Shown piece by piece: positions 12,101 to 26,684 of a stretch of 64,000 nt of DNA. The notes under the pieces are model-generated. The model worked only from the letters and a program-made list of their open reading frames with translations, was not told the origin of the DNA and searched no databases. The DNA is taken from positions 124,001 to 188,000 of the forward strand of contig JAOAPY010000015.1 in NCBI GenBank assembly GCA_025463135.1, in the 5' to 3' direction. The position numbers and the translations under genes were made by a program. Numbering within the stretch: position 1 is the first letter of the stretch; every line of letters starts with the position of its first letter. Source of the DNA: Acidobacteriota bacterium (lineage in GTDB: Bacteria; Acidobacteriota; Blastocatellia; Pyrinomonadales; Pyrinomonadaceae).

Positions 12101-15100
12101 TAGATCTTTTGCTGACTCTTTTTGGTGATGTTATGGATCGGATCGACCAGGGTTCCCTCGTCGGTTACGGTCACTACATCACTACCAGCACAGCCGCAGC
12201 TGTCGTACGTTGCTGTGTTTGAGGTGTTGTCGGGATTAGTGGTAACGAGCGGTCGGCCTTTCCAGTCATAAGTGTTCTGAGTATATAGCCAGCCGGCGGA
12301 ATCATCGCCCGCCGGCACCCAGCCGCCATTTATCTCGGTGGGATTAGATTCCTTCGCTACGCGGCCCATCGAGTCGTAAATCGTCAACTTAGCTTTATAG
12401 CCGCCGGTGCTGGCGGGGTTATTGGTAGCCGATCCCACTGCGCGGCCCAGGCCATCGAAAGTCTGGATAGAGTATGCTTCGTCAGCCACGTTGTTCACGG
12501 TACTGAAACTCGCCGTGTAGTCACTTCCGTACCAAAAGCGTTGGTACGCTCCATTGTTGGTTGTTGTGACCCGCGCAATGCGAGCCGCATTATCGTAAGC
12601 AACTACCTGAATTAGCCCTTGCGACTGATTGGCCGGCGGCGGCCCCTGCACGCGTGTCTTCGAGCCGAAGTCATAATGGTATTTCACGACGGAGCTGAAC
12701 CCGCCGGCATCGGTGACGGTGGTCGGGTAGGCGAGAGTTATGAACGATAGACTCGTGTCATTAACACCATCGGCAGAGAAAGAGTCCGTATAGCTTTGCG
12801 AGCTTTGGTGACCGGCGGCGTCGGTGCTGGAAATTAATGAGCCCGTAGTGTTATACACCGAACTTAAAGAAACATACTGAGTAGGATTGTTTACGTCGTA
12901 GCGTCGCGTGCTCGAAGGATTACCGCGGCCTTGCACGAACTGAGAACCGAAGTTCGTTTCATCATGCTGCACGGGCGCCCCTTGAAATTGGACCGAGCCG
13001 GTTTCGTCATAGTGAAAGGTCGCTTTGGATAAGAGTGCTGAGCCGCTGTTGTTCGAGCAGGGCGCCACGCCCTGGCTGCCGTCACAAAGGTAGGTCGCGC
13101 TCGTGAGGCCGATAATGCGCCGGCTCGAGTTTATGTAAGCCGAGTCGAGATTGTAATCGGTGTGTGTGCGGCGCAACACCGTCGAGGCGTCTGTGTCGTA
13201 TTCGTAAACATCACTCGGCAGCGAACAGGTGGCGCCGCCGGGAAGTGTGAAGGGCGAAGTATAACCAATGGTCGTGCGTCGACGATGGCCGTTCGCGTCA
13301 TAGATATTGGTTTCCGTGCTCCGCGGGTTCTGAGGGTAGCCGAGGCTGGTGTTGTCCTGCGTCCAGTTAGTAGTCGTCCACTTCAACCGATTGTCTGATG
13401 ATTCCTGGTCTGCATTCGCGTAAGTCATGGTGCTCGTGACCAGTCCCTGTTGCCGTCCCGTGCCGTAATACTCTTTGAAGATGGTCCCGTCGGGCGCTAC
13501 CATTCGGCAGGCCCCATCGCCGGTGGCGCCAAATTCGGTCAGTACTTCACTGGGAACATCGTTAATGCCGGTCCAGTTGTCGGCGGCCATGCTCATGGTG
13601 ACTATGCGCGGATAGTCGTTGCGGACCTCCTCGCGATAGTTAAAAACTAAAGTGGAGCGTTCCAATTCATCGGAAGTAAAGCGCCTGATCGTGTTGATCT
13701 GTCCCGTACGCTCATATTCAAAGTTGTAGTGCGAGCCGTCGTCCAGGCCCACTTCCGTCAAGATCACTACTTCATCGCTGAGTCCAATGACGCAGCGTCC
13801 ATTCGAACCATCTTTGGTCTGAAATTCGCTGGTATTCGAACTGCAATAAAAGCCGGTTTGCACGTTCATCCGATCATAAGAAAACGAGGCCCACACGTGT
13901 TCCGCACCGTTCCAGGTCTGCGTAATCGAGCTCAGATTGTTACGGCTGTCGTAGTTGAACGTCACGACGCGCGCCAGCGTATCGATGACCGTGCTAATGT
14001 CGCCGAACTCATTGTAATTAACCGTGATGTAGTTCCCGTTACGGTCTTTGATTTCGGTGCAGCGCCACGCATTCTCGATCCTGGTGTAAGTCATTTGCGT
14101 GCCATCTCTGGGGCGCACCAGGAGATTACTTGGATTGCTGCCGCTAAGGTCCGTCAACTGCATATAGGAAGAGTCGGCGGCTTCATAAATATTTGAAGTC
14201 CCCACCTGGAGCAGTTGCACGCGGTTGCCTGCGGGCGTGATGAGCAGATACGCGTTCTGGCCCAACTTAGCATTGAAGAACCGGTCCTGGACAGTCGGGA
14301 AGCCGAGATTAAAACCAGGACTCACGGGACTATTGTCTTCGTCGAAGTAAATGTATGGGCCTGAGGGTGTCCAAACAGCCGCCGACGAGTACGAAATACC
14401 CAGGTTTAGATCCAAACCAGCGCGGCCCGGCAAACTTAAAAGAGGCGCACTCCATTCGGCGTCACGCGCCATCATTTGATTGCCGGGTTGGTTTTTCGGA
14501 TCTAGTCGCGCTGTCAGAAGCGAGGATTCCCTGCCCGTGGGGACGCCAGTCAAAGTCACAGTCGCCACCTTCGCTATAAATTCGCCGCACTCGTCAAATG
14601 CTCGACGCACGTTATCGCGTCCCCACTCAGGCACCTGGCTTTGCCAGAATTCCCAACCTTCGTTGTCCGGGCTGCGTAGCAGGTACGTCTTATAGAGGTC
14701 GTAAACAAAGTCGCTGTCTGATCGATCGCGGCTGCTGTATTCCCTTGATTCAAACAACGTCTTTCCCATCTCTCTGGCAGCCAGGACCATCGAGGGTTGT
14801 CCCTGTGCATGCGCCCGTCGCAATATGTCGCCCCAATACAATGATTCATCTTCTTCCGCTGATCGCTCAACTGCATATGAAAACCACCACTGCACGTAAT
14901 CAAGGTCGTTGATGGGCGGGGCAGTCAGACTCGCGGAGCGCGCGTGATTTCGCTGGTTCTTTTGAAGGTGAGTGAATGAAGCTGAGGAATTCGCGTTTGG
15001 CGTCACGGCCCTGTAGTCGTGCAATGCCCTCGCGCCGGCAAAAGTCTGGCGCGCCGTTCCGGGCGCGCTGGTGGTACCTGGATCACCCACTTTGCGGCCA

Positions 15101-15408
15101 TTGCGCGGCGCCAGCGGTTTGCGGTGAGAGCGAATCGACGAAGGACGGGGCGCCCTGGTCTCAGGACGGCGCAGGCGCTCGCGTTGCGCTAGATCGAGAT
15201 TCGGCATTCTGGTCGCCGGAGGACCAGCCTGCGGCCTGCCCCGACGCGATGTTGCCTGAGGGCTGGCTGGCGAGGACTTCACCACGACCAGCGAAGAGAG
15301 CATCAGGGAACAACAAATCAAAAGAGAGCAGACAATCGCCACGGAACGGGTATTCGCAACCCTGGAAAACAGGTTAACTCGAACGGAGTGCAACGTGAGT
15401 CTTGGCAT
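9160..15408 (-). CDS. Large exported Rhs/YD-repeat protein with DUF4214-like and inserted beta-sandwich domains
   Basis: A 2082-residue protein. The start at 15408 is chosen over a longer frame because GGGAGGTC lies three bases upstream and the protein then opens with an export signal or membrane anchor (SVAIVCSLLICCSLMLSSL, residues 22-40). Residues ~232-285 (DFVYDLYKTYLLRSPDNEGW) resemble DUF4214. Many YD repeats follow (YDSMGRVAKESN, YDWKGRPLVTTN, YDAAGNRSAMSD). At about 1153-1313 the repeats are interrupted by a separate beta-sandwich-like domain (TSWKQSLTE, FDDSSWSAA, VYFRKTF, VYLNGNKVAD) typical of carbohydrate-binding modules. The usual Rhs core ending (DPxG) is not seen; the C-terminus from ~1800 is a basic linker, then an unrecognised ~200-residue domain with QTHHFVAFLSAG and GGDLRLGFAAYHLG. 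I infer a surface shell protein with a possible C-terminal effector. Confidence 0.9.
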   Translation of the reverse strand: MPRLTLHSVRVNLFSRVANTRSVAIVCSLLICCSLMLSSLVVVKSSPASPQATSRRGRPQAGPPATRMPNLDLAQRERLRRPETRAPRPSSIRSHRKPLAPRNGRKVGDPGTTSAPGTARQTFAGARALHDYRAVTPNANSSASFTHLQKNQRNHARSASLTAPPINDLDYVQWWFSYAVERSAEEDESLYWGDILRRAHAQGQPSMVLAAREMGKTLFESREYSSRDRSDSDFVYDLYKTYLLRSPDNEGWEFWQSQVPEWGRDNVRRAFDECGEFIAKVATVTLTGVPTGRESSLLTARLDPKNQPGNQMMARDAEWSAPLLSLPGRAGLDLNLGISYSSAAVWTPSGPYIYFDEDNSPVSPGFNLGFPTVQDRFFNAKLGQNAYLLITPAGNRVQLLQVGTSNIYEAADSSYMQLTDLSGSNPSNLLVRPRDGTQMTYTRIENAWRCTEIKDRNGNYITVNYNEFGDISTVIDTLARVVTFNYDSRNNLSSITQTWNGAEHVWASFSYDRMNVQTGFYCSSNTSEFQTKDGSNGRCVIGLSDEVVILTEVGLDDGSHYNFEYERTGQINTIRRFTSDELERSTLVFNYREEVRNDYPRIVTMSMAADNWTGINDVPSEVLTEFGATGDGACRMVAPDGTIFKEYYGTGRQQGLVTSTMTYANADQESSDNRLKWTTTNWTQDNTSLGYPQNPRSTETNIYDANGHRRRTTIGYTSPFTLPGGATCSLPSDVYEYDTDASTVLRRTHTDYNLDSAYINSSRRIIGLTSATYLCDGSQGVAPCSNNSGSALLSKATFHYDETGSVQFQGAPVQHDETNFGSQFVQGRGNPSSTRRYDVNNPTQYVSLSSVYNTTGSLISSTDAAGHQSSQSYTDSFSADGVNDTSLSFITLAYPTTVTDAGGFSSVVKYHYDFGSKTRVQGPPPANQSQGLIQVVAYDNAARIARVTTTNNGAYQRFWYGSDYTASFSTVNNVADEAYSIQTFDGLGRAVGSATNNPASTGGYKAKLTIYDSMGRVAKESNPTEINGGWVPAGDDSAGWLYTQNTYDWKGRPLVTTNPDNTSNTATYDSCGCAGSDVVTVTDEGTLVDPIHNITKKSQQKIYHDVLGRPWKQELLNWQGGSPYATTVTTYNARDQVTLQREFDGAGPATPGDASCSSASAQRFGSDTSWKQSLTESTGWQNPNFDDSSWSAAVDEGAYGTAPWGTAAGMPAGTSAHWIWYYDSRNGNDQSTVYFRKTFTATTTSAKLRITGDNLYFVYLNGNKVADSVGTWDQPSTVPLALVQGSTNTIAVIVFNFGGPGGLLADIDSGSACQQTTMSYDGHGRLQSRHAPEQSAGTATTWDYYLDDTVQKITDARSASSTYTYNSRHMVTGVTFNAPAGITIPTAESYSYDAAGNRSAMSDGSGSLLYQYDPLSRLTSETKYFNGLAGSYTAGYAYNLAGDLKTLTYNNGSTITYGIDADGRTTSVTGSAYGGVTDYVSNITYRASDQPKGIAFGNGTLLEMSYTSRLQLLRYNMRSYVYQGQRYDTHKVDHQYNPNGSLLYAHDITYERFDRAYNYDQVGRLAAAYTGAEARAFVNQPSSSEWGPYRQYYQFNAWGDMIGRINQFWSQSDIFSANFANGRNQDSAWQHDANGNIRFDRDLEYKYDASGINSSVRTLGDNITTTQTVDGDGELIKRQSSQSSPLFYFRSSALDGKILAEINAATQTLRSYVYLEAEVLAVRENNTVYWRHENPMTGSRGETVAQGFYSQKAEPDSMGVDVGFQDPWDIPPETFPDPDLASLYPGETGGQCRVGGVVIHCHAAQQLLASGSAARCPNDDCSARWNGKEWKFPTYTWKGFSYSGLSGEDDVQKPKQTRPVLRKRGQTRPRRVGDVRRQRRATRKGKQHPEGPLPQESGGENQTGAPQQTDVCDLLARNAQKIYDELPNKAINLGRELEAVDARLSKWYVGRRMSSFATAAIFYVQLLAHGGDIAKMGAELADKGYFGTGGFPEKFLDSRIPDQDQTHHFVAFLSAGINDTTVDLHVSWDFLQGNGGDLRLGFAAYHLGQYLRNNRSELKNIGNLIQDNICRGRSSWFIPVYH

Positions 15409-15789
15409 CGGACCTCCCAGGACATAAACAGCCCGGGGATCTGAACGAAGCCCATTGGAGCAGCAACTCGTGAGCAAGACGTCAGCGCCCAGGCAAGTCA
15501 TACAGGTCTTCTGGGTGGCCTGTCGTATCGACGAGACCTTATTGACTCGGCGATGAAAAGTGAGTGGCGCGAAGAGTATTATCACGTCCTGATTCTGTCA
15601 AGGATTCCTTGCAGGAAAATTTTCCACGAGAGCGCTTCCGATCTTCTTTTGGGAAACCCGGAATCGATGCACTTCGACCCGGTTTCAGGCATTATCAGAA
15701 AACAATTTGACGGTGACTCATATAGTGATAAATTGAGCGCACGTTTGAGTTGGGCCTAACAATTTCTTAACGGCAACGGATTCTTTTTC
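15409..15789. other. Divergent intergenic region, Rhs / heme-binding-like genes
   Basis: This 381-base region separates two divergent genes and should hold both promoters. GGGAGGTC at 15411-15418 is the Rhs ribosome-binding site. On the plus strand TTGACG at 15707 followed by AT-rich sequence (tatagtgataaatt) is promoter-like, but the spacing to a good -10 is poor. The short ORFs here have no protein-like character. Confidence 0.5.
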
Positions 15790-17949
15790 ATGATCGTAAA
15801 ACGAGGCAGAGCGCTGACATGGTTTGTGGTTCTGTTCGTTGCGCCGGTAATAGTTTTCTTCAGCGATCGTTTTTCGTCGCGCAATTCGCAAGCTCAAACT
15901 CCGCGGCCCACCCTCTTCAGTAATTCTGATTCCACCAGAGCAATCGCCGTTGATTCGATCACCAATACTCGCGAGCCGTTCTCAACCTTAATGCCCGTAT
16001 CTTTCAGTGATGATCGCAACACGCGTGTGATGCTGTTCGCGGGAAATCTTCGTTTGCAGGAGAATGAGACGTTTGCAGTTGTCACCGCTGATGCTGAAGA
16101 CGAAGCGCACAACGTCTTTCCACTGAATGTAGAAGCCGTCGGTCCAGTCCCCGATCAGAATTGGGCCACGGTCGTGATTCTCAAACTCAACGAACAAATG
16201 ATCGATCCGGGCGACGTGCTGGTGCGAATCTATTATCACGGCGTCGCGAGCAATCGCGTGCGTGTTGCTGTCGGCCATACCGGTGGCGGGCCTCCGGATG
16301 ATTTGGGCGCGGCGCCAACACCTGGTCCCTTTGGAATCAATTCTCCGAACAGCCCTGCCACCGCCGGAACGCTGACAACCGACGAAGTAAAGACCATCAT
16401 TGCCCAGGCCGTTTCCGCCGCCGCCTCGGTAAACAAAGCCGTCACCGTAGCGGTCACCGATCGCGAAGGAAGTGTCCTGGGCGTTTTTGCCATGACTGGT
16501 GCGTCATCGCTGATGCAGATTCGTGGCGGTGGACCGGTACAGACACCTGATCCAATTACTGGATTGGTTCCAGTTGGGCTTGAAGGCACCAGGTTGCCTT
16601 CCAAACTGGGGGCGATTTCAAAAGCAGGCACGGCGGCGCTGTTCAGCACTTCCGGCAATGCGTTCAATTCTCGTACGGCTGGATTTATCATCCAGCAGCA
16701 CTTTCCGCCGGGGGTAAACTTCCAACCGGGTGGACCACTTTACGGTGTTCAGTATTCTTCCCTGCCCTGCTCGGACATTAAGATCCCGGGCCTGCCGCTC
16801 GGCCTCAGTGGTGATCCTGGCAGCATGCCGATCTACAAGAATGGCATTGCGCAGGGCGGCGTCGGTATCGAAGGAGACGGAGTCTACGGCATCGATCCCA
16901 ATCCGGCGGATTTCGATCTTCCTTTCGAGGAAATGATCGCGCTTTCCGCCGTGCGCGGCTTTGCTGCGCCAACGCTGATTCGCGCAGACAACATTTTGGT
17001 TGATGGTATTCGCCTGGTGTTCTCGAATGCGACGACAGTTCTTAACCCACCGACGATTGCGTTCGGAGTCTTGCCGGGAGCTATTGATCCCTTGTTTCCG
17101 ATTGTGGGAGCGCAGCCTTCGACCTTTACCGCGGTGACTGTTGGTGGAATCAACGGTGAAACGGACGCCAGATTCTTTCCCTTCATCAGCAGCCCGACTG
17201 GCGGACCCAATTCGCTGACTGCCGCGGACGTTGATCTGATTATTTCCCACGCGGCTCAACAGGCAAACATCACGCGCGCGGCCATTCGTCAGCCGTTGGG
17301 GAGCAATGCTCGCGTTTCAATTGCGGTGGTCGATACCGAAGGACGCGTGCTGGGATTTTTTCGGCAGCCGGACGCGCCCGTCTTCGGCTTTGACGTTTCG
17401 GTCCAAAAGGCCAGGACTGCCGCCTTTTATTCCGGAGGGAATGCGGCCGCGCTGTTGCGCACGGCGGGCTTTGGAAGTTACGTCGATCGCGCGGCTGCTG
17501 ACGGATTGTTGCTCAACGGCGCCGTGGCCTTTACGGATCGCGCGGGGGGATTTCTTCACCGGCCCTTCTTTCCGGACGGCATCAACAATAGCGCGGCAGG
17601 ACCCTTTAGTACCGAGATAGGCCAATGGAGCGTTTTCAATGTAGGGTTCCAACTCGACCTAATCAAGACCAATCTACAGGCGGCGATTGCGGGTGCAAGT
17701 GTCCGCTGCACCTCGATACCGAATCTGCCTAATGGCGTGCAGATTTTTCCTGGCAGTGTTCCGCTCTACAAGAATGGCGTGCTGGTGGGCGCGATTGGTA
17801 TCAGTGGCGATGGCGTGGACCAGGACGACATCATCTCGGCTGCCGGTGGCAATGGGTATGCTCCGGCGGCCGCGATTCGATCGGATCAGATATTCGTAAG
17901 GGGCGTGCGCTTGCCGTTTCTGAAGTTTCCTCGCAGCCCGAATCTGTGA
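15790..17949 (+). CDS. Exported protein with two GlcG/HbpS-like domains
   Basis: A 719-residue protein. The signal peptide is about residues 1-36 (FVVLFVAPVIVFFSDRF). Residues ~50-165 look like an Ig-like beta domain (RVMLFAGNLRLQENETFAVV, DVLVRIYYHG). Two copies of a heme-degrading/GlcG-HbpS-like domain follow, roughly 195-415 and 480-715. Each opens with a helix of the form LTTDEVKTIIAQAVSAA or LTAADVDLIISHAAQQA. Each then has VAVTDREGSVLGVF or IAVVDTEGRVLGFF and closes with PIYKNGIAQGGVGIEGDGV or PLYKNGVLVGAIGISGDGV. HbpS proteins bind heme or sense redox; single-domain members have ~140 residues, so these are enlarged. Its closeness to the heme-protein island suggests a heme-handling role, which is inference. 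Confidence 0.85.
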   Translation: MIVKRGRALTWFVVLFVAPVIVFFSDRFSSRNSQAQTPRPTLFSNSDSTRAIAVDSITNTREPFSTLMPVSFSDDRNTRVMLFAGNLRLQENETFAVVTADAEDEAHNVFPLNVEAVGPVPDQNWATVVILKLNEQMIDPGDVLVRIYYHGVASNRVRVAVGHTGGGPPDDLGAAPTPGPFGINSPNSPATAGTLTTDEVKTIIAQAVSAAASVNKAVTVAVTDREGSVLGVFAMTGASSLMQIRGGGPVQTPDPITGLVPVGLEGTRLPSKLGAISKAGTAALFSTSGNAFNSRTAGFIIQQHFPPGVNFQPGGPLYGVQYSSLPCSDIKIPGLPLGLSGDPGSMPIYKNGIAQGGVGIEGDGVYGIDPNPADFDLPFEEMIALSAVRGFAAPTLIRADNILVDGIRLVFSNATTVLNPPTIAFGVLPGAIDPLFPIVGAQPSTFTAVTVGGINGETDARFFPFISSPTGGPNSLTAADVDLIISHAAQQANITRAAIRQPLGSNARVSIAVVDTEGRVLGFFRQPDAPVFGFDVSVQKARTAAFYSGGNAAALLRTAGFGSYVDRAAADGLLLNGAVAFTDRAGGFLHRPFFPDGINNSAAGPFSTEIGQWSVFNVGFQLDLIKTNLQAAIAGASVRCTSIPNLPNGVQIFPGSVPLYKNGVLVGAIGISGDGVDQDDIISAAGGNGYAPAAAIRSDQIFVRGVRLPFLKFPRSPNL

Positions 17950-18073
17950 CCATGCCGGATTCGCGGGCGCAGTGAACAATTGCTTGCGAGTAATGCTTTG
18001 AGATCGATGCGTTGTGAGAATGAGACTAAGACTTTATGGAAAAGTCGGTGCGATCACCGAAGTGATAGATTTC

Positions 18074-18892
18074 ATGGTTAACAAGATCCGCTTAACTCAC
18101 ACGACTTCCCTCTTAGCTCTCATGTGCGTCTGTATGTTCGTCGCGGCACACGCACAAACCGCTTCACCTGCCGGCGCCACCGGTGTAATCCGATTGCGTG
18201 TGAGAGTGGGAATTGGCGATGGTACTAAGTCCAGGGGCCTCTCGAGAAAACGCTTTTTCCTGATCAAAGGATCGCTGGAAGCCAACAAGGAGGTCCTGCA
18301 ATCCCTGGAGCGTCCGATCGTTTCCCGTGATTGTTATTACCGCGGCATCGGCGCCAGCGAAGAGCTTATTGCCTGGCTGAAAGAGAATGATTGTGAATCA
18401 ATCTATTGTCGGGAAGTGGATCAGAAAGATGCCGCATCCGTTCCCGAATTTCAGCACGCCCTCGCCCTGGGAGAAAAAGAGTATGGCAGCCGCGAGCTGG
18501 CCCGTAAATGGCTTTCAGTAAGCCTGCCCGAAAACATTCGCAGCGGTTTTTACAAACGACAGCAACTGGATCTCCAGGCGCTGATTGAGCAAACGGAACG
18601 GCACTCTCGGACCAATGTCGCATCGGTAATGACTGACCGCAACGGCACTGCGTATTTCACGGATATTGAAGTAGGCGTCTACGTCATTTCAAATATTTTA
18701 CCCACTGAAGTCAATGACTCGTCTGAATTGTGGCGTTGCGAGGTTAAGGTGATGCCCGGCGATCTGGCCACGGCAACCAGGGAGAAGCCTTACCTGATCT
18801 CTGATCCCGGTAACAAAGATCCCAAGGACAAGCGAAATATCAAGTGTGTCAGCGCAGAAAGACCGCTGCCCCTCTGTCCGCGAGTCCCGTAG
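18074..18892 (+). CDS. Unknown exported protein
   Basis: A 272-residue protein if started at ATG 18074, which puts a signal peptide (LLALMCVCMFVAAHAQ) at residues 12-28; a longer in-frame start at 18014 only adds a poor N-terminal tail. I do not recognise a family. The body has RLRVRVGIGDGTKSRGLSRK, a cysteine-containing central part (DCYYRG, NDCESIYCREV) and near the end TDRNGTAYFTDIEVGVYVI, which is the pattern of a carboxypeptidase-regulatory or SpaA-like beta-sandwich. It lies between the HbpS-like gene and the nonaheme cytochromes on the same strand. Its role is unknown. Confidence 0.75.
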   Translation: MVNKIRLTHTTSLLALMCVCMFVAAHAQTASPAGATGVIRLRVRVGIGDGTKSRGLSRKRFFLIKGSLEANKEVLQSLERPIVSRDCYYRGIGASEELIAWLKENDCESIYCREVDQKDAASVPEFQHALALGEKEYGSRELARKWLSVSLPENIRSGFYKRQQLDLQALIEQTERHSRTNVASVMTDRNGTAYFTDIEVGVYVISNILPTEVNDSSELWRCEVKVMPGDLATATREKPYLISDPGNKDPKDKRNIKCVSAERPLPLCPRVP

Positions 18893-18955: not shown

Positions 18956-20146
18956 ATGGCTAATTCAGGCAAGTCTTCCCCACTGCGCAACAAGCAGATG
19001 TCCGATAAACTTCAGTTTGTCGTTGGTCTGTTTCTCCGACGTTGGAGAAGGGCGAGTCAACGACAAACTGAAGTTTGTCGGACGTCTTTGCGGAGCTGGC
19101 CCATATTGATCGTCGCCGCCGGCGCGTTGCTTTCAGGAATTTCCGCCATAGCACAGAAACGAAGAGTCAGGCCGCCTCAACGCCCTGTAGCCGCCAGAAT
19201 TGACTACTCTAGGTTCCTGCACTCGACGAAACAACATCAGGAAGCCTGTAATACTTGCCACAAGGCGCCAACGTCGAATTGGAAGAAAGCGCGCGCCTTT
19301 CCCGACATCGCCGACTATCCCGATCACGATGCATGCGTGCGCTGTCATCGGCCGCAATTCTTCAAGGGTGCACAGCCCGTGATTTGTTCAAACTGTCATA
19401 GAAAGGTTTCGCCACACGATGACGTGCGCTTTCCTTTTCGTAATCAAGACAGGCCGCACCAGTTCAAGGTCGAATTCCCCCATGACAAGCATCAGGATGT
19501 AATTGCACGGTTGCTGGAGGGGCAGCCGCCGACTGTTCGCACGCAATCTGCTCGAGCTTCCTTTTACGCTTTTGCGCATGTGGTCCAAACGCGAGCCGAC
19601 TATAACAACTGCACCATCTGCCATACGACCAACGCACGACCGCCCGTCGCTCCTCGTGATGGTTGGTCAGATAATTTCATTCCCGCCGCCGACTTTTTCA
19701 AGACCGTTCCCGAGGCGCACTCGGCCTGCTTTAACTGTCATTGGAAAAGCCAGCAACCAACGAAAGATAACTGCGCCGGCTGTCACAAGCTCGCAGCGCC
19801 CTTCGCTCCGGACAAGACTCCCAAACGGATCTCGATAAAGTTTCGCCATGAGGGGGGCGGCGCCAAACAAATACATCTGGCGGAGTGCACGACTTGTCAT
19901 ATCAACATTACGAAAGCCGCTTCTCTAAAAGGCCTTAAGCCGGACGTACCGATTACCGGATGCACTGAGTGTCATAACAAGTCCGGCTTGAGAGAAGACC
20001 TGGGAAACGAACTGGCGGCGATTGATAAGAACAAAGACTTCGTTTGCAGCTACTGTCACACGTCGGACGTCGGCAGACGTGACCCGCCCATGGGACATTA
20101 CCTGGTTGCCGAGCGTCCGCCACGTCTGCGGAAGGAAATTAGGTGA
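18956..20146 (+). CDS. Nonaheme c-type cytochrome (first of a tandem pair)
   Basis: A 396-residue exported protein with nine CxxCH motifs (CNTCH, CVRCH, CSNCH, CTICH, CFNCH, CAGCH, CTTCH, CTECH, CSYCH) from about residue 98 to 372 and several nearby histidines able to act as distal ligands. The export signal is LRSWPILIVAAGALLSGISA, residues 45-64. Residues ~15-43 are encoded by a paired inverted repeat (19001-19083), so the real start may be the TTG at 19088, directly before the signal; ATG 18998 is another choice. Its N-terminal third matches the next gene (DYSRFLH versus DYSTFKH, and QFF before the third heme), so the two are paralogues. The stop overlaps the next start (GTGA). Predicted periplasmic electron carrier. 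Confidence 0.92.
   Translation: MANSGKSSPLRNKQMSDKLQFVVGLFLRRWRRASQRQTEVCRTSLRSWPILIVAAGALLSGISAIAQKRRVRPPQRPVAARIDYSRFLHSTKQHQEACNTCHKAPTSNWKKARAFPDIADYPDHDACVRCHRPQFFKGAQPVICSNCHRKVSPHDDVRFPFRNQDRPHQFKVEFPHDKHQDVIARLLEGQPPTVRTQSARASFYAFAHVVQTRADYNNCTICHTTNARPPVAPRDGWSDNFIPAADFFKTVPEAHSACFNCHWKSQQPTKDNCAGCHKLAAPFAPDKTPKRISIKFRHEGGGAKQIHLAECTTCHINITKAASLKGLKPDVPITGCTECHNKSGLREDLGNELAAIDKNKDFVCSYCHTSDVGRRDPPMGHYLVAERPPRLRKEIR
19001..19083. repeat. Paired inverted repeat (REPIN-like), tccgacaaacttcagtttgtcg family
   Basis: The arms tccgataaacttcagtttgt (19001-19020) and acaaactgaagtttgtcgga (19063-19082) are inverted copies around a ~35-base spacer. The same paired form lies at 33651-33739 and 45933-46012, and a single arm at 56632-56655. 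Each arm is itself palindromic (caaacttcagtttg). Here the unit falls in the apparent coding start of a cytochrome gene. Confidence 0.8.
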
Positions 20147-21336
20147 ACAGGAAAGATCGAAACCGCACGCTTGCTGTAATTGTTGGAGCTGTTCTCTGCC
20201 TGTTCGGCAGCGTCTGCGTGTTTGCCGCGGGCATTACCAAGGCAAGAGCAGCGCGCGACACGACGGATGATGCGAAACGAGATCAAGCGGCACAGGTTCG
20301 CGCGAACTCACCTTATTCGAAGGACCATTCGTCTTCCTTCTCGTCAGTTTCACCTTCTTCAGCTCCAGCGGAGCATAATATTTATCGACAAAGCGGAGCT
20401 GAAAAAGGAGTTAGCTTCGTAGGAGGGAAACAATTTCCACGTTTCAATAGTCGACCCCATCCAATCATTTCGCTCCTACGGAACTCGGGAGATGGCTTAG
20501 GGCTTGGTTTCTATAAACATTCCGTCCCTACGAGACTGCTTACATCGGGCACCGCCAACGGTACTTCTCCGATCAATATTCAAGGCCCCGAATTGGACTA
20601 CTCGACTTTCAAACACACGAGCAGTCGACATGCCGCCCTGGCGTGCAGCGACTGCCATCAACGGACCGCGGATAACTCGGCAAAGCCGGCGTTCCCCGGT
20701 CATTCCGCGTGTGTGAATTGTCATGGCAATCAATTCTTTAGTTCGTCGAGTCCGATGTGCATGATTTGTCATTCGGATGTAAACACGGCCCGAGCGCCTT
20801 TGCGGAGTTTTCCCATCAACTTCAAAGAACGATTCAATGTAAGGTTCGATCATGCACAACATATGAGCGCCGCTGTTCGGCCAAAGAATGGCTGTGCTGC
20901 CTGTCACGGCGCGAGTCTGAATCGCGGCGTTGCCCTGGCGATACCAACAGGCTTGGGTGCCCACGCGCAATGTTACGTCTGCCATACGCCGGCGAGTAAG
21001 TCGGCCGCCGGACGCGATCTCGCTTCCTGCGGTGTATGCCACGAGCAAAAAAACTTTACACGAACATCGACCAATGCCGGCGCCTTTCGCGCCTCATTCA
21101 GCCACGCGAAGCACGGACCGCGGCAGCGTTTGGAATGCGCTGCGTGTCACACGTTGACTGCCGGCGTGACCCAGGGAAAACAAGTCAGTTCACCACACGC
21201 GGCCGAGCACTTTTCAGTTAGTGGCGGTCAAAGTTGTCTGGGCTGTCACAACGGCAAGCGTTCGTTCGGCGGCGACCTGGCATTCAAGGATTGTCGGCGC
21301 TGCCACTCCGGCGCAAGCTTTCGCATGCCGAGCTAG
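20143..21336 (+). CDS. Nonaheme c-type cytochrome (second of a tandem pair)
   Basis: A 397-residue exported protein starting with GTG inside the preceding gene's stop (GTGA overlap), so translation is coupled. The signal peptide is TLAVIVGAVLCLFGSVCVFA at residues 9-28. Residues ~40-140 form a Ser/Pro-rich linker. Nine CxxCH motifs follow (CSDCH, CVNCH, CMICH, CAACH, CYVCH, CGVCH, CAACH, CLGCH, CRRCH). The heme region begins with the same layout as the upstream paralogue but the linker and later spacing differ. Predicted periplasmic or surface electron carrier acting with its neighbour. Confidence 0.92.
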   Translation: MNRKDRNRTLAVIVGAVLCLFGSVCVFAAGITKARAARDTTDDAKRDQAAQVRANSPYSKDHSSSFSSVSPSSAPAEHNIYRQSGAEKGVSFVGGKQFPRFNSRPHPIISLLRNSGDGLGLGFYKHSVPTRLLTSGTANGTSPINIQGPELDYSTFKHTSSRHAALACSDCHQRTADNSAKPAFPGHSACVNCHGNQFFSSSSPMCMICHSDVNTARAPLRSFPINFKERFNVRFDHAQHMSAAVRPKNGCAACHGASLNRGVALAIPTGLGAHAQCYVCHTPASKSAAGRDLASCGVCHEQKNFTRTSTNAGAFRASFSHAKHGPRQRLECAACHTLTAGVTQGKQVSSPHAAEHFSVSGGQSCLGCHNGKRSFGGDLAFKDCRRCHSGASFRMPS

Positions 21337-21744: not shown

Positions 21745-22317
21745 ATGAAGCTTGTCGCAGTTTTACTGGCGTGTGTCGCCTGTCTGGTTGTAGTCAACGG
21801 CAGAGGCTCATTGGCGTCTGGTGTGGCCGGCTCTGTCTTTGAAGAAAGTAAGACACAACCCAAAGAGGTCGTGCTGGACAAAGACAGCCAGTCAGATAAG
21901 TACGGAGAGGTGGCTTTCAATCACGAGAACCACGCGACCAAGAAATACGATCCGGCCGGGACAGCGGTCCTGTCGTGCATAGAATGTCATCATACGGACC
22001 AGCCGGCGGCCGGGCTCAAGGCGCCGCTCAAGACTTCAGAACGCAATGCAGTTTTGAGTGCTGACTTGCTGCAGGCTGCAGACTCTAAACCGGTCAAGAC
22101 CTGCCGTACCTGTCACCTCCAGGCGGGCGACGACAGCGCACCGCTCCCGGTCGTCACGTACCCTGAAAAAACCACGCCTACCAAGCTTACGAACGAAGTT
22201 GCTTATCACAACAACTGCAATATCTGCCATGACAAGGCTATCGCCGCGCGGCCCGCGCTGAAGGGAAAAGTTCCAGGCTCCAACGATTGCCTGCCCTGTC
22301 ACAAGCCTGCATCGTGA
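21745..22317 (+). CDS. Tetraheme cytochrome c3-like protein
   Basis: A 190-residue exported protein with a signal peptide (MKLVAVLLACVACLVVVNG) and four CxxCH motifs (CIECH, CRTCH, CNICH, CLPCH) spread over residues 77-187, with several non-motif histidines (FNHENH, HHTD, YHNN) in positions typical of bis-histidine class III cytochromes c. The length suits a single c3/c7-type domain. Such small tetrahemes commonly shuttle electrons in the periplasm between inner-membrane quinol-linked proteins and larger multiheme partners. It is placed between the nonaheme pair and the convergent FHA-heptaheme gene. Confidence 0.9.
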   Translation: MKLVAVLLACVACLVVVNGRGSLASGVAGSVFEESKTQPKEVVLDKDSQSDKYGEVAFNHENHATKKYDPAGTAVLSCIECHHTDQPAAGLKAPLKTSERNAVLSADLLQAADSKPVKTCRTCHLQAGDDSAPLPVVTYPEKTTPTKLTNEVAYHNNCNICHDKAIAARPALKGKVPGSNDCLPCHKPAS

Positions 22318-22701: not shown

Positions 22702-24126
22702 CTAATTCCGCGCGAGCAGCGACGGATTCCAATGACGTTTGTCTTTGATGTGCTGTACATGACATGAAGTGCAGTTGGGTTTGTCCGCGGCAATGACCTG
22801 ACGATGTGTCCCGGGTTCGAGACGCCCGTTATGGCAGATGCCGCAGGTCTGCCGTGGCGTTTCGCGGTCGATGGGATTAAACGATTTGTGGCAACTGGAG
22901 CACGATAGACGTCCCTGCATATCGCCCGCCAGGGCGCCCACGGCGCGAACTCGTTGCACGTGCAAGACGTGAAACTGTTTACTGCGCCACTGCTGGTCAC
23001 TATCAGCAGGTAAGCGTGTCACTGCAATCTGTTTCGTACTCCATTCGCTTTCGTCGAGGCCTTTCCAAATCCATTTCCCATTTGCGGTGGGATATCCAAA
23101 CTTGCCGCTGTGAGGAGTACCGACTTTACGACCATTGTAGGTGTTTCGGTTGGTGTCGCTATGACATTGAGTGCAAGTCAGCAGCGCTGCTTCCGCCGGC
23201 TTGAATTCTTTTCCCTTGTGTTCCGTGTGGCAGGTGGTGCAGCCAATGCCCGCGTTGTGATGGGGTTGGATCACGGTGGGAGCAAACGCCGCTGCGTTGT
23301 GGCATGACGCACAATTTGATTCCATACCGCCACTGAGCGAGTGGCAAGTTGTACACGAGTTACTATTCGGCTTCAGCGCAATCGCCGGAAAGATGGTCAA
23401 TTGATTCTGCGCGTGGGCCAACGATAGGGGAGCAGGCGCATAGGCATTTGCATACCAGAATGCTCCCGCGCCCGATACTAACCCGACGGCGATCACTCCC
23501 CAGATCAGGAATGAAATGGGCCAACCGCGCGCCAGATCGCTGGTAGGTGTCCAGTTGAACTGCGACTTTCCGACCCGTTTTTGAGAGTGCGGAAATAACG
23601 GGGCCGGTCGCACCATCTTACCTGCCTCGCGTATGCGCTTGTCCCAAAAAATATCCAGCGCCTTGGTCCCGGGCAGCGGCGCGGCTCGCGGCACTGCTTT
23701 CTTTTTTGCGCCGGACAGAACTACGGAAAGGTCTTCGAGATTTTTCGTGGTTAGCGCGGGGCTGCTGACATCGCCTTCATGGACGATTCGGCCAATCTGT
23801 AACGAGACCTTGATGACCAGAGCATCGGCAGTGAAATCTATCTCCAGCAGGAAAGGCCCCGCTTCCAGCATGTCCCCGGCCCCGAGCGCCTGGTTTTCAG
23901 CAATTGGTCGGGCGTTAAGTTTGATGGGATTCGAAGGGCGAAGATTGAAAATATAGTAATCGCCTTCGATCTGTTTGATGCCCGCTTGCACTCGCGAGAC
24001 GGAAGGATGATTCAACAGCAGTTCGCATTCACTCAGCCGACCCACCAACAATCCCTCGGTGATAATCAGCACCGGGTCTTGCAGCAGATCCTCGCGCACC
24101 ACGAGGAATTTGTTTTTCTGTTGCAT
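22702..24126 (-). CDS. FHA domain - transmembrane - heptaheme cytochrome c fusion
   Basis: A 474-residue protein. Residues ~18-100 form a forkhead-associated domain (GLLVGRLSECELLLNHPSVS, then NPIKLNARPIAENQALGAGD). FHA domains bind phosphothreonine peptides; the usual His of the SRxHA motif is Gln here (SRVQAGI). A single membrane segment spans 203-224 (PISFLIWGVIAVGLVSGAGA), followed by seven CxxCH motifs at about 258, 272, 296, 318, 409, 428 and 452. The predicted layout is FHA in the cytoplasm and hemes in the periplasm. It follows the cNMP/4Fe-4S/membrane gene on the same strand after 83 bases and probably accepts electrons from it. The domain joining is clear from sequence; the signalling role is inferred. 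Confidence 0.9.
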   Translation of the reverse strand: MQQKNKFLVVREDLLQDPVLIITEGLLVGRLSECELLLNHPSVSRVQAGIKQIEGDYYIFNLRPSNPIKLNARPIAENQALGAGDMLEAGPFLLEIDFTADALVIKVSLQIGRIVHEGDVSSPALTTKNLEDLSVVLSGAKKKAVPRAAPLPGTKALDIFWDKRIREAGKMVRPAPLFPHSQKRVGKSQFNWTPTSDLARGWPISFLIWGVIAVGLVSGAGAFWYANAYAPAPLSLAHAQNQLTIFPAIALKPNSNSCTTCHSLSGGMESNCASCHNAAAFAPTVIQPHHNAGIGCTTCHTEHKGKEFKPAEAALLTCTQCHSDTNRNTYNGRKVGTPHSGKFGYPTANGKWIWKGLDESEWSTKQIAVTRLPADSDQQWRSKQFHVLHVQRVRAVGALAGDMQGRLSCSSCHKSFNPIDRETPRQTCGICHNGRLEPGTHRQVIAADKPNCTSCHVQHIKDKRHWNPSLLARN

Positions 24127-24132
24127 CTAGTT

Positions 24133-24212
24133 GTACAGCAAGCTGCTAAGTTGCTTCGGCGGTTCGCGGCATTCAACGCAATCGCAAGCTGGCAGCTTGC
24201 GCTACACAGTCA
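24133..24212. repeat. Inverted repeat between the two inner-membrane redox genes
   Basis: Contains cagcaagctgctaagttgc and, near the end, the palindrome gcaagctggcagcttgc. Related palindromes lie near 43770, 49270-49350 and 56660. It occupies almost the whole 83-base gap between two cotranscribed genes and its end overlaps the stop of the upstream gene. Confidence 0.6.
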
Positions 24213-26684
24213 CCGCACGACAAAGAACACTACCTGCACGATATGCACGAGCATTAACGCCAGCATAAACGAGGTTGAGATTACGTGCGGCGCTATCCAG
24301 ATGCGCAGTAACTTGTGGACGAAAATGAGCGCGTCAACCCGGCTCAGCGTGGCCGCAGTCTCCACCGACTCCAGCAGGGTCGCTCGTTCCGCATCAGTTG
24401 CCAGCCGCGTGGTTCGCTCTTTGAATTCGCCACGCGCATGCGCCAGCAATCGCTTCAACTCTTCGCGGCACAACAGCTGTCCGAGCACGAAACGTTTGCT
24501 GAGGAAACGCTTCCTTACTCTCTCTTCGATCTCTTCTCGCAACCAACCTTCGCTCTTTTCAATTATCGTGGAGAGGTCGCTCTTCAACTCACTGCGGCGT
24601 GCGGTCAAATCTTCGATCAGCAAAGGCTCGCCCTCAATACTTGTAAGCACGCGCGGCCCAACAGTGTAGGAGACGATTCCAAAAAGACCGGAAAGGATCA
24701 CGCCCACAAACGCCAGATAGAGCAGAGTGGTAAGGAGCCCGCCCGTGTGCAGGCCCGCATGCATAAACAGGAGGACGGTCGCGATCGTGCCAAAATATAC
24801 GTGGGCCAAAAGCCAGTAACGGAGGGCGCCGGCGCGCCGGCGGTAGATCTGTTTGCGAACCGGGTAAGTCATCACCACGATGACCCCGCTCAGGCCGATT
24901 AGACCCGTGACCCAGCGCATGGTAAGCCAGGTGCCCGCGAGTCGTCCGCTAAAACCGTGTCGAGCTAGTCCCCATGCGGCGCTCACCGATAAAATAAGCG
25001 TCAACAGCATCCCGCCCAGGTGCCAGGCCCTGGACCAGGGATCGCTCTGATGAATATTCCGGCCAATAGCGTGCTGGTCATCGCGAAAAACCATGCCGAG
25101 CGTATTCCCTGCTTCGCGAAAGTATTCGATCGGATCCACGCGTACCAAGGCTCCGGTGGGACAATTCTCTTCGCAGGAGTACGCCTTGCGGCGCGCGCCC
25201 GGCGGATTCAAAGGCGTGTTCTCGCAGAGATTGCACTTGATGGCCACCATCTCATCAGACTCCTGGGCCACCGGCGCCGCCGGAGCCGCCAGACTGAGCA
25301 GGCCCTTCAATTTGGTGGTTACACTTCGGGGTACCGCCTCCGCGGGATGGCGCGGCACCATGGTAATGGCGTCGTAAGGGCATTGCGTGGGACAGTCAAA
25401 ACAGCCTATGCAGGTGTCGATATTGATGTCGACATAGCCGCTTTGATCGCGAAAAATCGATCCCGTGGGACATCCGGTCAGACACTCCGGATCCTTGCAA
25501 TGCATGCACACCTGTGGTGAAAGCACATGTTGGGTTTTCTTTGTTCCAGACTTGACTGGCCGAATGATTTGAATGCCGCGACGCACCAGGCGCGATTGCC
25601 CATGGACTTTGTGACAGGCCAGCGAACAATTGCCGCAGCGAATACACAGGTCCATGTCCATGACGAGTAGATTGGCAGCATCGACGATGCCCGTAGATAT
25701 TTCTTCTTCGGTTGCAGCCAGCACCCGATAATCCGGCATCTCTTCAATGGTCTGTGGCGGCTTGTCATCGACCGCCGAAAAGCCTGAGAAGGCTTCTATG
25801 ATTCCGTTACGCAAAGGCCCATCAGTCAGACTCTCGATCGGTATTTCAAAGACCTCGGTGCGTGCCATGACAGAGGCGTTATACTTCCAGGCGCCGCCGT
25901 CCTGAGCCCCTTCGAGGCCCAGACAATTTCCCGCGCCGAGAAAATCCACACCGATGCTCGAGCCCACCCCCATGCTGATGCCGCTGTCGGCCGCGCTGAA
26001 GGGAATGCCGCTAACACGACGCACCCAACCACTCTTGATCAAAATAATCCGATCGATAGCCTGGCCTTCCTGGCAAAGCACGTGATGCTTTCCATAGACA
26101 ACAAACTTCGCTACTTTGCCGAGACGGTCCACCATCTCTTTGCTGAGGGGGCCGGCCATCATCTGCGCCAAATCCTCGAGCACTCTGCCAAAGCCGTGGA
26201 CGCGATAGGTGTTGTCGAGCGTCTGGCCAAACTTTGGTAATTTGCGCAGCAGTCGCAGTGCGGGCCGATCTATCTCCAGCACCGTTGCTTTGGCGCCTGC
26301 AGGGACGGCGATGGTGGCATTACGTTCCACGCCGGCGAGTACCGACATTTCGCCAAAGCAAGTACCGGGATGCAATTCGCTGATCTTGTGGCGCGCGCCG
26401 GCCTTGTCTTTCACCCAGACATCCAGGGTCCCGTCCACGCCGATGTAGAAGGTGTTTCCACCCCATTCACCCTGGCGCATAATTTCTTCGCCGGCTTCGT
26501 ACTTGATCAGCCGCACGTATGGTCCAACCTTTTTTCCGCCGGCATAATCGCGACCGCGAACGATGACTTCAAGGTCTTTGTCGTATTTTAGTTTTCCGTT
26601 CACCTCTTCAAACAGTTCCGAGGTGAGATCGAGTTGCTTAACTGCGTCGGTGATGATGTCCTGGTTCGTGATCACTTGCGGCAT
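24210..26684 (-). CDS. Membrane redox protein with two cNMP-binding domains and 4Fe-4S ferredoxin modules
   Basis: An 824-residue protein. Residues ~52-150 are a cyclic-nucleotide-binding fold (LIKYEAGEEIMRQGEWGGNT, FGEMSVLAGVERNATI) and ~185-300 a second, more divergent one (VLCQEGQAIDRIILIKSGWV). Residues 345-520 hold clustered cysteines: CIRCGNCSLACHK, CMHCKDPECLTGC, CIGCFDCPTQC, CNLCENT and CEENC, enough for about four 4Fe-4S clusters of the DmsB/HybA type. Residues ~553-680 and 785-824 contain about six membrane segments with histidines (HVYFGTIATVLLFMHAGLH; VHKLLRIWIAPHV; LVHIV), as in membrane b-type cytochromes. No DNA-binding domain is present, so the sensor domains probably act on the redox protein itself. 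I infer quinone-linked electron transfer to the FHA-heptaheme protein. Confidence 0.9.
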   Translation of the reverse strand: MPQVITNQDIITDAVKQLDLTSELFEEVNGKLKYDKDLEVIVRGRDYAGGKKVGPYVRLIKYEAGEEIMRQGEWGGNTFYIGVDGTLDVWVKDKAGARHKISELHPGTCFGEMSVLAGVERNATIAVPAGAKATVLEIDRPALRLLRKLPKFGQTLDNTYRVHGFGRVLEDLAQMMAGPLSKEMVDRLGKVAKFVVYGKHHVLCQEGQAIDRIILIKSGWVRRVSGIPFSAADSGISMGVGSSIGVDFLGAGNCLGLEGAQDGGAWKYNASVMARTEVFEIPIESLTDGPLRNGIIEAFSGFSAVDDKPPQTIEEMPDYRVLAATEEEISTGIVDAANLLVMDMDLCIRCGNCSLACHKVHGQSRLVRRGIQIIRPVKSGTKKTQHVLSPQVCMHCKDPECLTGCPTGSIFRDQSGYVDINIDTCIGCFDCPTQCPYDAITMVPRHPAEAVPRSVTTKLKGLLSLAAPAAPVAQESDEMVAIKCNLCENTPLNPPGARRKAYSCEENCPTGALVRVDPIEYFREAGNTLGMVFRDDQHAIGRNIHQSDPWSRAWHLGGMLLTLILSVSAAWGLARHGFSGRLAGTWLTMRWVTGLIGLSGVIVVMTYPVRKQIYRRRAGALRYWLLAHVYFGTIATVLLFMHAGLHTGGLLTTLLYLAFVGVILSGLFGIVSYTVGPRVLTSIEGEPLLIEDLTARRSELKSDLSTIIEKSEGWLREEIEERVRKRFLSKRFVLGQLLCREELKRLLAHARGEFKERTTRLATDAERATLLESVETAATLSRVDALIFVHKLLRIWIAPHVISTSFMLALMLVHIVQVVFFVVR

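Follow-up and report, generated by a model that had tools for sequence, protein, structure and literature searches.

CymA, ImcH and CbcL are inner-membrane cytochromes of extracellular electron transfer, a process whose regulation is mostly discussed in terms of transcription and cytochrome supply. In the Geobacter ext cluster (extHIJKLMNOPQS) the inner-membrane parts are described as the cytochrome b ExtP and the Rieske protein ExtO, and the cluster was linked to the reduction of selenite and tellurite, not to that of Fe(III) (PMC5877670). For marine Acidobacteriota and for Thermoanaerobaculum aquaticum, which reduces Fe and Mn oxides, clusters of multi-haem cytochrome and beta-barrel genes were proposed to serve metal-oxide reduction (PMC8528874). 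The stretch of 64,000 nucleotides analysed here (the window; assembly GCA_025463135.1, contig JAOAPY010000015.1, positions 124,001 to 188,000) belongs to a 6.48 Mb genome whose best named relatives are Pyrinomonadaceae and other Blastocatellia of the Acidobacteriota, and it carries two neighbouring fusion genes. One encodes a protein with two cyclic nucleotide-binding (cNMP) domains, A and B, an iron-sulphur (Fe-S) region and a histidine-bearing membrane domain (the cNMP-FeS-cytochrome b protein); the other encodes an FHA domain, one membrane helix and seven CxxCH motifs (the FHA-haem protein). The pair is very probably an electron-transfer module, and on balance we read it as the inner-membrane part of an electron conduit that spans the envelope and most likely reaches outside the cell; cNMP domain A and the FHA domain would most probably be regulatory.

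The pair would hold the same place in the pathway as CymA, ImcH and CbcL, between the inner membrane and periplasmic cytochromes, but it consists of different proteins. With the ext cluster the locus shares a barrel-type porin, several multi-haem cytochromes and an inner-membrane cytochrome b, and its large cytochrome matches ExtM; in place of ExtP and ExtO, however, the cNMP-FeS-cytochrome b and FHA-haem proteins are found. The combination of multi-haem cytochromes with beta-barrel proteins is also common to the clusters of PMC8528874, a likeness by description which does not make them the same clusters. Neither 'cyclic nucleotide' nor 'FHA' occurs in the main text of that paper, or in PMC10553843, PMC11976967, PMC11748539 and PMC12977616, and a full-text literature search, covering few subscription journals and no preprints, returned no paper joining FHA or cyclic nucleotides with multi-haem cytochromes, 4Fe-4S proteins or extracellular transfer; broader queries brought up only work on different systems. 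Barrel-cytochrome clusters are already in print; what is new is the inner-membrane module of an extracellular-type conduit.

Both open reading frames are in frame at the positions given in the original prediction; the genes lie on the minus strand, 83 bp apart. A Pfam scan of the two proteins at E ≤ 1 placed cNMP_binding in two stretches of the 824-residue protein (E 1.5e-21), where two cNMP folds had been predicted, and also matched Fer4 families. The Fe-S region contains 16 cysteines, enough for four [4Fe-4S] clusters ("about four" in the prediction), all of which are invariant in the 54 sequences of an alignment reaching down to 26% identity. Its best NCBIfam match is DsrO, with 69.3 bits against a cut-off of 200, and NrfC and ArrB also remain under their cut-offs. 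It shares the 16-Cys, four-cluster make-up of these subunits but is fused to cNMP domains and a membrane cytochrome, and membership in the DsrO or NrfC equivalogs was rejected because the scores lie far under the cut-off. The predicted membrane domain carries four histidines that are likewise invariant in 54 of 54 homologues and form two HX13H pairs. In an AlphaFold model (mean predicted local distance difference test score 81.4) H628 and H642 lie on helix 621-643, and H800 and H814 on helix 797-823; by our count the model has five membrane helices, of which these two are numbers three and five. With a cytoplasmic Fe-S domain both would run outward, placing H628 level with H800 and H642 with H814, and the two pairs may then hold two stacked b haems. 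Among 11 members, three show weak similarity to the Pfam family b561, with E 4.8e-5 at best, and the protein of the window shows none; the matches displayed by the whole-protein fold searches are to the cNMP domains and so give no reading on the fold of the membrane domain.

The two cNMP domains were judged by the phosphate-binding cassette, which we take to be a Gly-Glu motif plus an arginine. In domain A, where one alignment row has a gap, G111 is conserved in 53 of 53 sequences and E112 and R121 in 52 each, including the 26-28%-identical rows that cover the region. The model matches the cGMP-bound cNMP domain of M. loti (3cl1; Z 14.3, root-mean-square deviation (rmsd) 2.2, 128 residues aligned) and the yeast PKA regulatory subunit (3of1; Z 14.7, rmsd 8.0, 238 aligned), and the cNMP site of domain A looks competent for ligand. 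The phosphate-binding arginine, on which the original prediction had staked nucleotide binding, is kept in domain A, whereas in domain B it is not conserved. The tandem-domain fold and the domain A cassette recall the regulatory modules of PKA and PKG and the domain of a bacterial cNMP-gated channel; here, however, they are joined to Fe-S clusters and a cytochrome b, not to a kinase or channel, and the domain B cassette has not been conserved. A Crp/Fnr-like regulator was rejected, as Pfam contains no helix-turn-helix match at E ≤ 1 and a membrane domain is present; no DNA-binding family is listed for either protein, in agreement with the prediction. A chance or mis-framed fusion was also rejected on the invariant ligands and the constant gene order described below, and because the ligands are kept in homologues at 26-28% identity the protein must be more than a chance fusion.

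The 474-residue protein has the architecture originally described, with an FHA domain (PF00498; E 5.5e-9, 36.8 bits against a cut-off of 20.7), one membrane helix (about residues 202-225, located by eye) and seven CxxCH motifs matched by Pfam families of the cytochrome c7/c3 type; no NapC/NirT family was listed for it by Pfam at E ≤ 1. In an alignment of 33 FHA-haem proteins, from which flavoprotein-fused FHA proteins were left out, the seven CxxCH motifs are invariant together with exactly seven other histidines (238, 289, 303, 339, 386, 389 and 459), a number that fits seven c haems, which are expected to be bis-His coordinated. At the positions presumed to form the phosphothreonine site (Arg, Ser, Asn), R30 is conserved in 31, S44 in 32 and N66 in 26 of the 33 sequences; R45 is kept in 32 and N71 in all 33. 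The FHA domain of the window is slightly atypical, with Gln at the usual His and a Pro following the Asn, and the phosphothreonine site is probably competent, with less certainty in the window clade.

Conservation of the two genes together, on which the original prediction leaned, was assessed in 80 named loci, the best 80 of 114 relatives found with two peptide patterns in 84,980 species genomes. These loci come from fewer than 80 genomes, some bins contributing two; 73 belong to Blastocatellia and seven are distant. In 13 of the Blastocatellia loci the cNMP gene lies at the contig edge (≤25 bp beyond it); in all 60 others the FHA-haem gene follows downstream on the same strand, under a rule that the next gene start within 1.5 kb (widest gap observed 422 bp). 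Among these 60, contig ends truncate the FHA-haem gene in L039, L074 and L079, where few or no CxxCH motifs are visible; six are visible in L052, and in L055 the gene is split over two frames. A 4Fe-4S/Pyr_redox flavoprotein of NAD(P)H type is fused or encoded downstream in 46 of the 60: the FHA-haem gene runs on into it in 12, and a separate gene follows in 34, three times with 1.0-1.6 kb in between. Eight loci lack it over 2.5 kb or more of visible sequence, and in six the contig ends too early. The best curated match of the flavoprotein is YpdA (E 9.7e-42), at 142.9 bits under the cut-off of 339.9. The seven distant loci yield two pairs under the same rule (L112 and L118) and five non-pairs, among which the FHA-haem gene of L113 is on the opposite strand and those of L114 and L116 are present though missed by the rule. 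In L114, L116 and L118 the flavoprotein is fused ahead of the cNMP-FeS part, cytochrome b has a gene of its own and the FHA-haem gene is next, while L112 (a Myxococcales bin) and L113 (a bin labelled Proteobacteria) combine cNMP-FeS-cytochrome b with FHA-haem-flavoprotein fusions. Because the fusions are reshuffled among loci, the arrangement suggests that the flavoprotein, cNMP-FeS-cytochrome b and FHA-haem modules work together.

On a tree of the cNMP protein, calculated with FastTree only and subject to a long-branch warning, the three states of the flavoprotein require three changes, and its absence forms a single group that includes the window (99% local support). A search of the host genome gave one generic match, a frame of 360 residues that is 34% identical to the flavoprotein half alone. 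On this lone partial match, the idea that another part of the genome encodes a dedicated flavoprotein was rejected, and because the match is only partial and generic the module was probably lost in the window clade. As observations on the surroundings of the pair, in 11 of the 80 loci the cNMP gene is immediately preceded by the gene of a small protein that has Cys pairs and is hydrophobic towards its C-terminus (L064 9554-9973 and relatives; its only match, to UPF0547, is sub-threshold), and a cytochrome c assembly protein (PF01578; L051 21067-22470 and relatives) is found near the pair in 10. Locus L089 is labelled Actinomycetota, but its scaffold is named Acidobacteria and it falls among Chloracidobacterium/Blastocatellia in the tree; the bin is probably mislabelled.

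The pair is part of a larger gene set (1989-26684; Table 1), whose other members have relatives in 11 to 35 of the 80 loci within a flank of at most 10 kb. The 741-residue barrel protein is modelled with about 18 long strands, and its best fold matches are structures of AlgE (Z 26.0, rmsd 3.0, 361 aligned; Foldseek E 4.7e-15). Its only Pfam match is CarboxypepD_reg, and NCBIfam gave none at E ≤ 0.05, so that no MtrB or PioB family match was obtained. The adjoining gene codes for the large cytochrome with nine CxxCH motifs, which matches ExtM (NF040943; E 1.1e-18) with 66.9 bits against a cut-off of 800; this score is far under the cut-off, and membership in the Ext equivalog was rejected. In L169 the barrel, the large cytochrome, cytochromes with four, eight and nine CxxCH motifs, the cNMP protein and an FHA-haem-flavoprotein form one same-strand run, and in L114 (Thermoanaerobaculia) HbpS-like, barrel-related and 10-CxxCH LVIVD genes come after the FHA-haem and flavoprotein-cNMP genes. 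Among 60 genomes (the host's own and others of its family and class) the cNMP protein is present in 36, the FHA-haem protein in 33, the large cytochrome in 34 and the barrel in 33. Both fusions co-occur in 33 genomes, three have the cNMP protein only, none the FHA-haem protein only and 24 neither, which bears out the expected co-occurrence; in two genomes where the FHA-haem gene went undetected (G003 and G030) completeness is 71-74% and the matches lie at contig ends. The cNMP protein and the large cytochrome are found together in 33 genomes; three have the former only, one has the latter only and neither occurs in 23 (Fisher p 2.5e-12, without correction for phylogeny). Of the 33 genomes with both, 14 have the two best matches on one contig and 19 on different contigs. 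The 19 include G046, G050 and G054, whose genomes consist of two contigs each; in broken assemblies a split over contigs is no proof of distance. The respiratory or extracellular electron path of the original prediction is well supported, and "extracellular" is the better guess given that an outer-membrane barrel and a large multi-haem cytochrome occur along with the pair. The predicted two-gene picture holds for the pair itself, but had missed the flavoprotein module and the outer-membrane partners.

Table 1. Genes and domains of the proposed conduit, with positions in the window.
Feature	Position	Strand	Evidence
cNMP-FeS-cytochrome b gene, 824 aa	24210..26684	-	ORF (open reading frame), Pfam, alignment, AlphaFold model
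cNMP-binding domain A, intact phosphate-binding cassette	26253..26507	-	alignment, fold match to cGMP-bound M. loti domain
cNMP-binding domain B, cassette Arg not conserved	25824..26102	-	alignment
Four [4Fe-4S] sites, residues 340-512	25149..25667	-	Pfam/NCBIfam, 16 invariant Cys
Membrane domain, five helices, HX13H on third and fifth (putative di-haem b)	24216..25040	-	alignment, AlphaFold, weak b561
FHA-membrane helix-heptahaem gene, 474 aa	22702..24126	-	ORF, Pfam, alignment
FHA domain	23863..24048	-	Pfam PF00498, R30 31/33, S44 32/33
Heptahaem domain, residues 258-459	22750..23355	-	seven CxxCH and seven further invariant His
4-CxxCH cytochrome, probable periplasmic relay	21745..22317	+	relatives in 30/80 loci
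9-CxxCH cytochrome, probable periplasmic relay	20143..21336	+	relatives in 35/80 loci
9-CxxCH cytochrome, probable periplasmic relay	18956..20146	+	relatives in 30/80 loci
HbpS-like protein	15790..17949	+	Pfam PF03928, relatives in 20/80 loci
AlgE-like outer-membrane beta-barrel, 741 aa	6060..8285	-	predicted model, fold match, co-occurrence
ExtM-like large 9-CxxCH cytochrome with LVIVD repeats, 1355 aa	1989..6056	-	family matches, co-occurrence

In the proposed mechanism, the four [4Fe-4S] clusters on the cytoplasmic side would exchange electrons with either the quinone pool or a partner in the cytoplasm. These electrons would cross the membrane via two b haems, the one held by H628 and H800 near the cytoplasm and the one held by H642 and H814 on the periplasmic side, and arrive at the heptahaem domain of the FHA protein in the periplasm. 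From there the smaller cytochromes might relay them to the outer-membrane barrel and the large nine-haem cytochrome. The cytoplasmic partner in most relatives would be the fused or downstream 4Fe-4S/FAD flavoprotein of NAD(P)H type; since the host lacks it, the Fe-S clusters of the window species would have to meet another soluble partner, or the b haems would use quinone. Domain A and the FHA domain, both placed on the cytoplasmic face, would most probably regulate electron flow or the assembly of the complex, domain A answering to a cyclic nucleotide and the FHA domain to a phosphothreonine protein. That the path leads to the outside is likely, while the chances that at least one such signal regulates it appear about evenly balanced. 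The computations establish the domains, the ligand residues, the order and co-occurrence of the genes and the barrel fold; topology, pairing of the haems, flow direction, the end point outside the cell and regulation are inferred from them.

Several observations weigh against this reading. The membrane domain of the window protein belongs to no Pfam family, and a sequence search of the PDB with it found no relative (best E 0.3). At the cassette arginine of domain B, only one of 54 sequences has Arg at residue 268 and nine at 269, and in the FHA domain N66 is kept in 26 of 33 sequences, with H47 replaced by Gln in nine (the window, seven rows of its clade or nearest kin, and L078). Two distant loci, L115 and L117, show no FHA-haem neighbour. 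The pair is present in G004, G006 and G036 (78-89% complete), in which the large cytochrome was not found, and conversely G039 has the barrel, the large cytochrome and the HbpS-like gene but no pair. In G055 the genes beside the barrel and cytochrome encode a distant cNMP-FeS protein (L165 13157-14767; both of its main cNMP domains show the Glu/Arg cassette by eye, unlike domain B of the window), a separate cytochrome b and a 10-CxxCH haem protein without an FHA family match. The same conduit might be built with cNMP and FHA domains that are structural, serving to dimerise, to dock the flavoprotein or to place the complex without signal-dependent gating. The degenerate domain B, the variable FHA pocket and the haem protein of G055 would all fit such a role, and the fusion of the FHA protein to its flavoprotein partner in 12 of 60 loci is what docking would favour. 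However, the Glu and Arg of domain A persist in 52 of 53 homologues, down to the most distant ones covering the region. In G039, moreover, the conduit genes stand beside a Pyr_redox_2/NDH2_C enzyme of NDH-2 type and an FHA-GAF-class III cyclase (L166 2360-3991 and 13550-15187), and this enzyme, unrelated to the pair, bears a C-terminal cNMP domain (E 1.3e-19), which makes a switched conduit more likely. A cNMP domain thus accompanies the conduit even where the wire is replaced, and among the indirect arguments for control by nucleotide this is the strongest. The cNMP domain is a more constant feature of the conduit than the FHA domain. A purely structural role is regarded as unlikely.

The conduit part of the interpretation can be questioned as well. 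MtrB forms a barrel of 26 strands, more than the roughly 18 of the window protein, and no model has haems passing through the barrel, whose fold is like that of channels for solutes and polymers, AlgE and the Occ porins among them. The module might instead work inward or within the periplasm, with outside or periplasmic donors reducing NAD(P)+ or quinone, or with a periplasmic reductase being fed, and the barrel would then serve solutes. Sequence cannot give the direction of flow, and the related ext cluster is tied to selenite and tellurite rather than Fe(III) reduction (PMC5877670). Such an arrangement is nevertheless judged somewhat less probable still than structural domains, given that the large nine-CxxCH cytochrome gene adjoins the barrel gene and that the barrels of two relatives (L169 and L170) carry four N-terminal CxxCH motifs, a tetrahaem-type N-terminus which in L169 matches a class III cytochrome. 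Signalling domains in both proteins of the pair could also point to a redox sensor that passes the periplasmic or extracellular redox state inward and alters cNMP or FHA binding, without being a bulk path. Four Fe-S sites, seven c and two b haems, a flavoprotein partner and a barrel exceed what this function needs, and Pfam shows neither protein fused to a kinase, a cyclase or a DNA-binding output, which makes a sensor highly improbable. Class III cyclases, which would fit a sensor and might equally supply a signal to the preferred regulated conduit, are found within 10 kb of the pair in six of the 36 pair-bearing genomes (G003, G007, G030, G044, G052 and G056), where 0.5 would be expected. 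G003 and G030 belong to one genus and G044, G052 and G056 to one family, and the cases shrink to about three independent ones (P 0.014), which again counts against regulation; the proximity is suggestive only of a signal source. Within the loci themselves cyclases occur in three of 73 from Blastocatellia (L063, L103 and L108) and in none of the seven distant ones, and since their type varies (FHA-GAF in L108, other kinds in L063 and L103) no single cognate cyclase emerges. Their presence in the genome tells little because they are too common (35 of 36 pair-bearing versus 19 of 24 other genomes; p 0.03, no phylogeny correction). The host genome has three class III cyclase matches, one of them in a frame of 580 residues with an additional FHA match, whereas G053 has the pair but no class III cyclase match, a further point against.

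Control by a cyclic nucleotide or a phosphothreonine protein is thus plausible but unproven, and the gating by second messenger and phosphorylation that was originally proposed is something we would still only infer. A bolder version, which we hold tentatively and at slightly less than even odds, is that two cytoplasmic signals act directly as switches on the wire of the conduit, through binding of a cyclic nucleotide to the PKA-like tandem cNMP module and of a phosphothreonine protein to the FHA domain. Much of a bacterial class would then have allosteric control over electron export or uptake, in addition to control via gene expression; the general form of the system, in several phyla, would be an NAD(P)H-flavoprotein/cNMP-FeS-cytochrome b/FHA-haem machine, and the cNMP-bearing NDH-2 would represent a second, independent solution. 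If so, ligand-binding domains in the inner-membrane wire would provide a direct and fast control point on the conduit, the Blastocatellia, many of which are uncultured, would gain a concrete candidate for extracellular respiration, and genes that libraries name only through their domains would gain a role.

Two further genes lie within the cluster in the window. An open reading frame of 2141 aa on the minus strand (9163-15585) encodes DUF4214 and RHS repeats and has no match in the 80 loci. A 292-residue protein encoded beside the cytochromes on the plus strand (18014-18892), with no family over cut-off, has relatives in 23 of the 80 loci.

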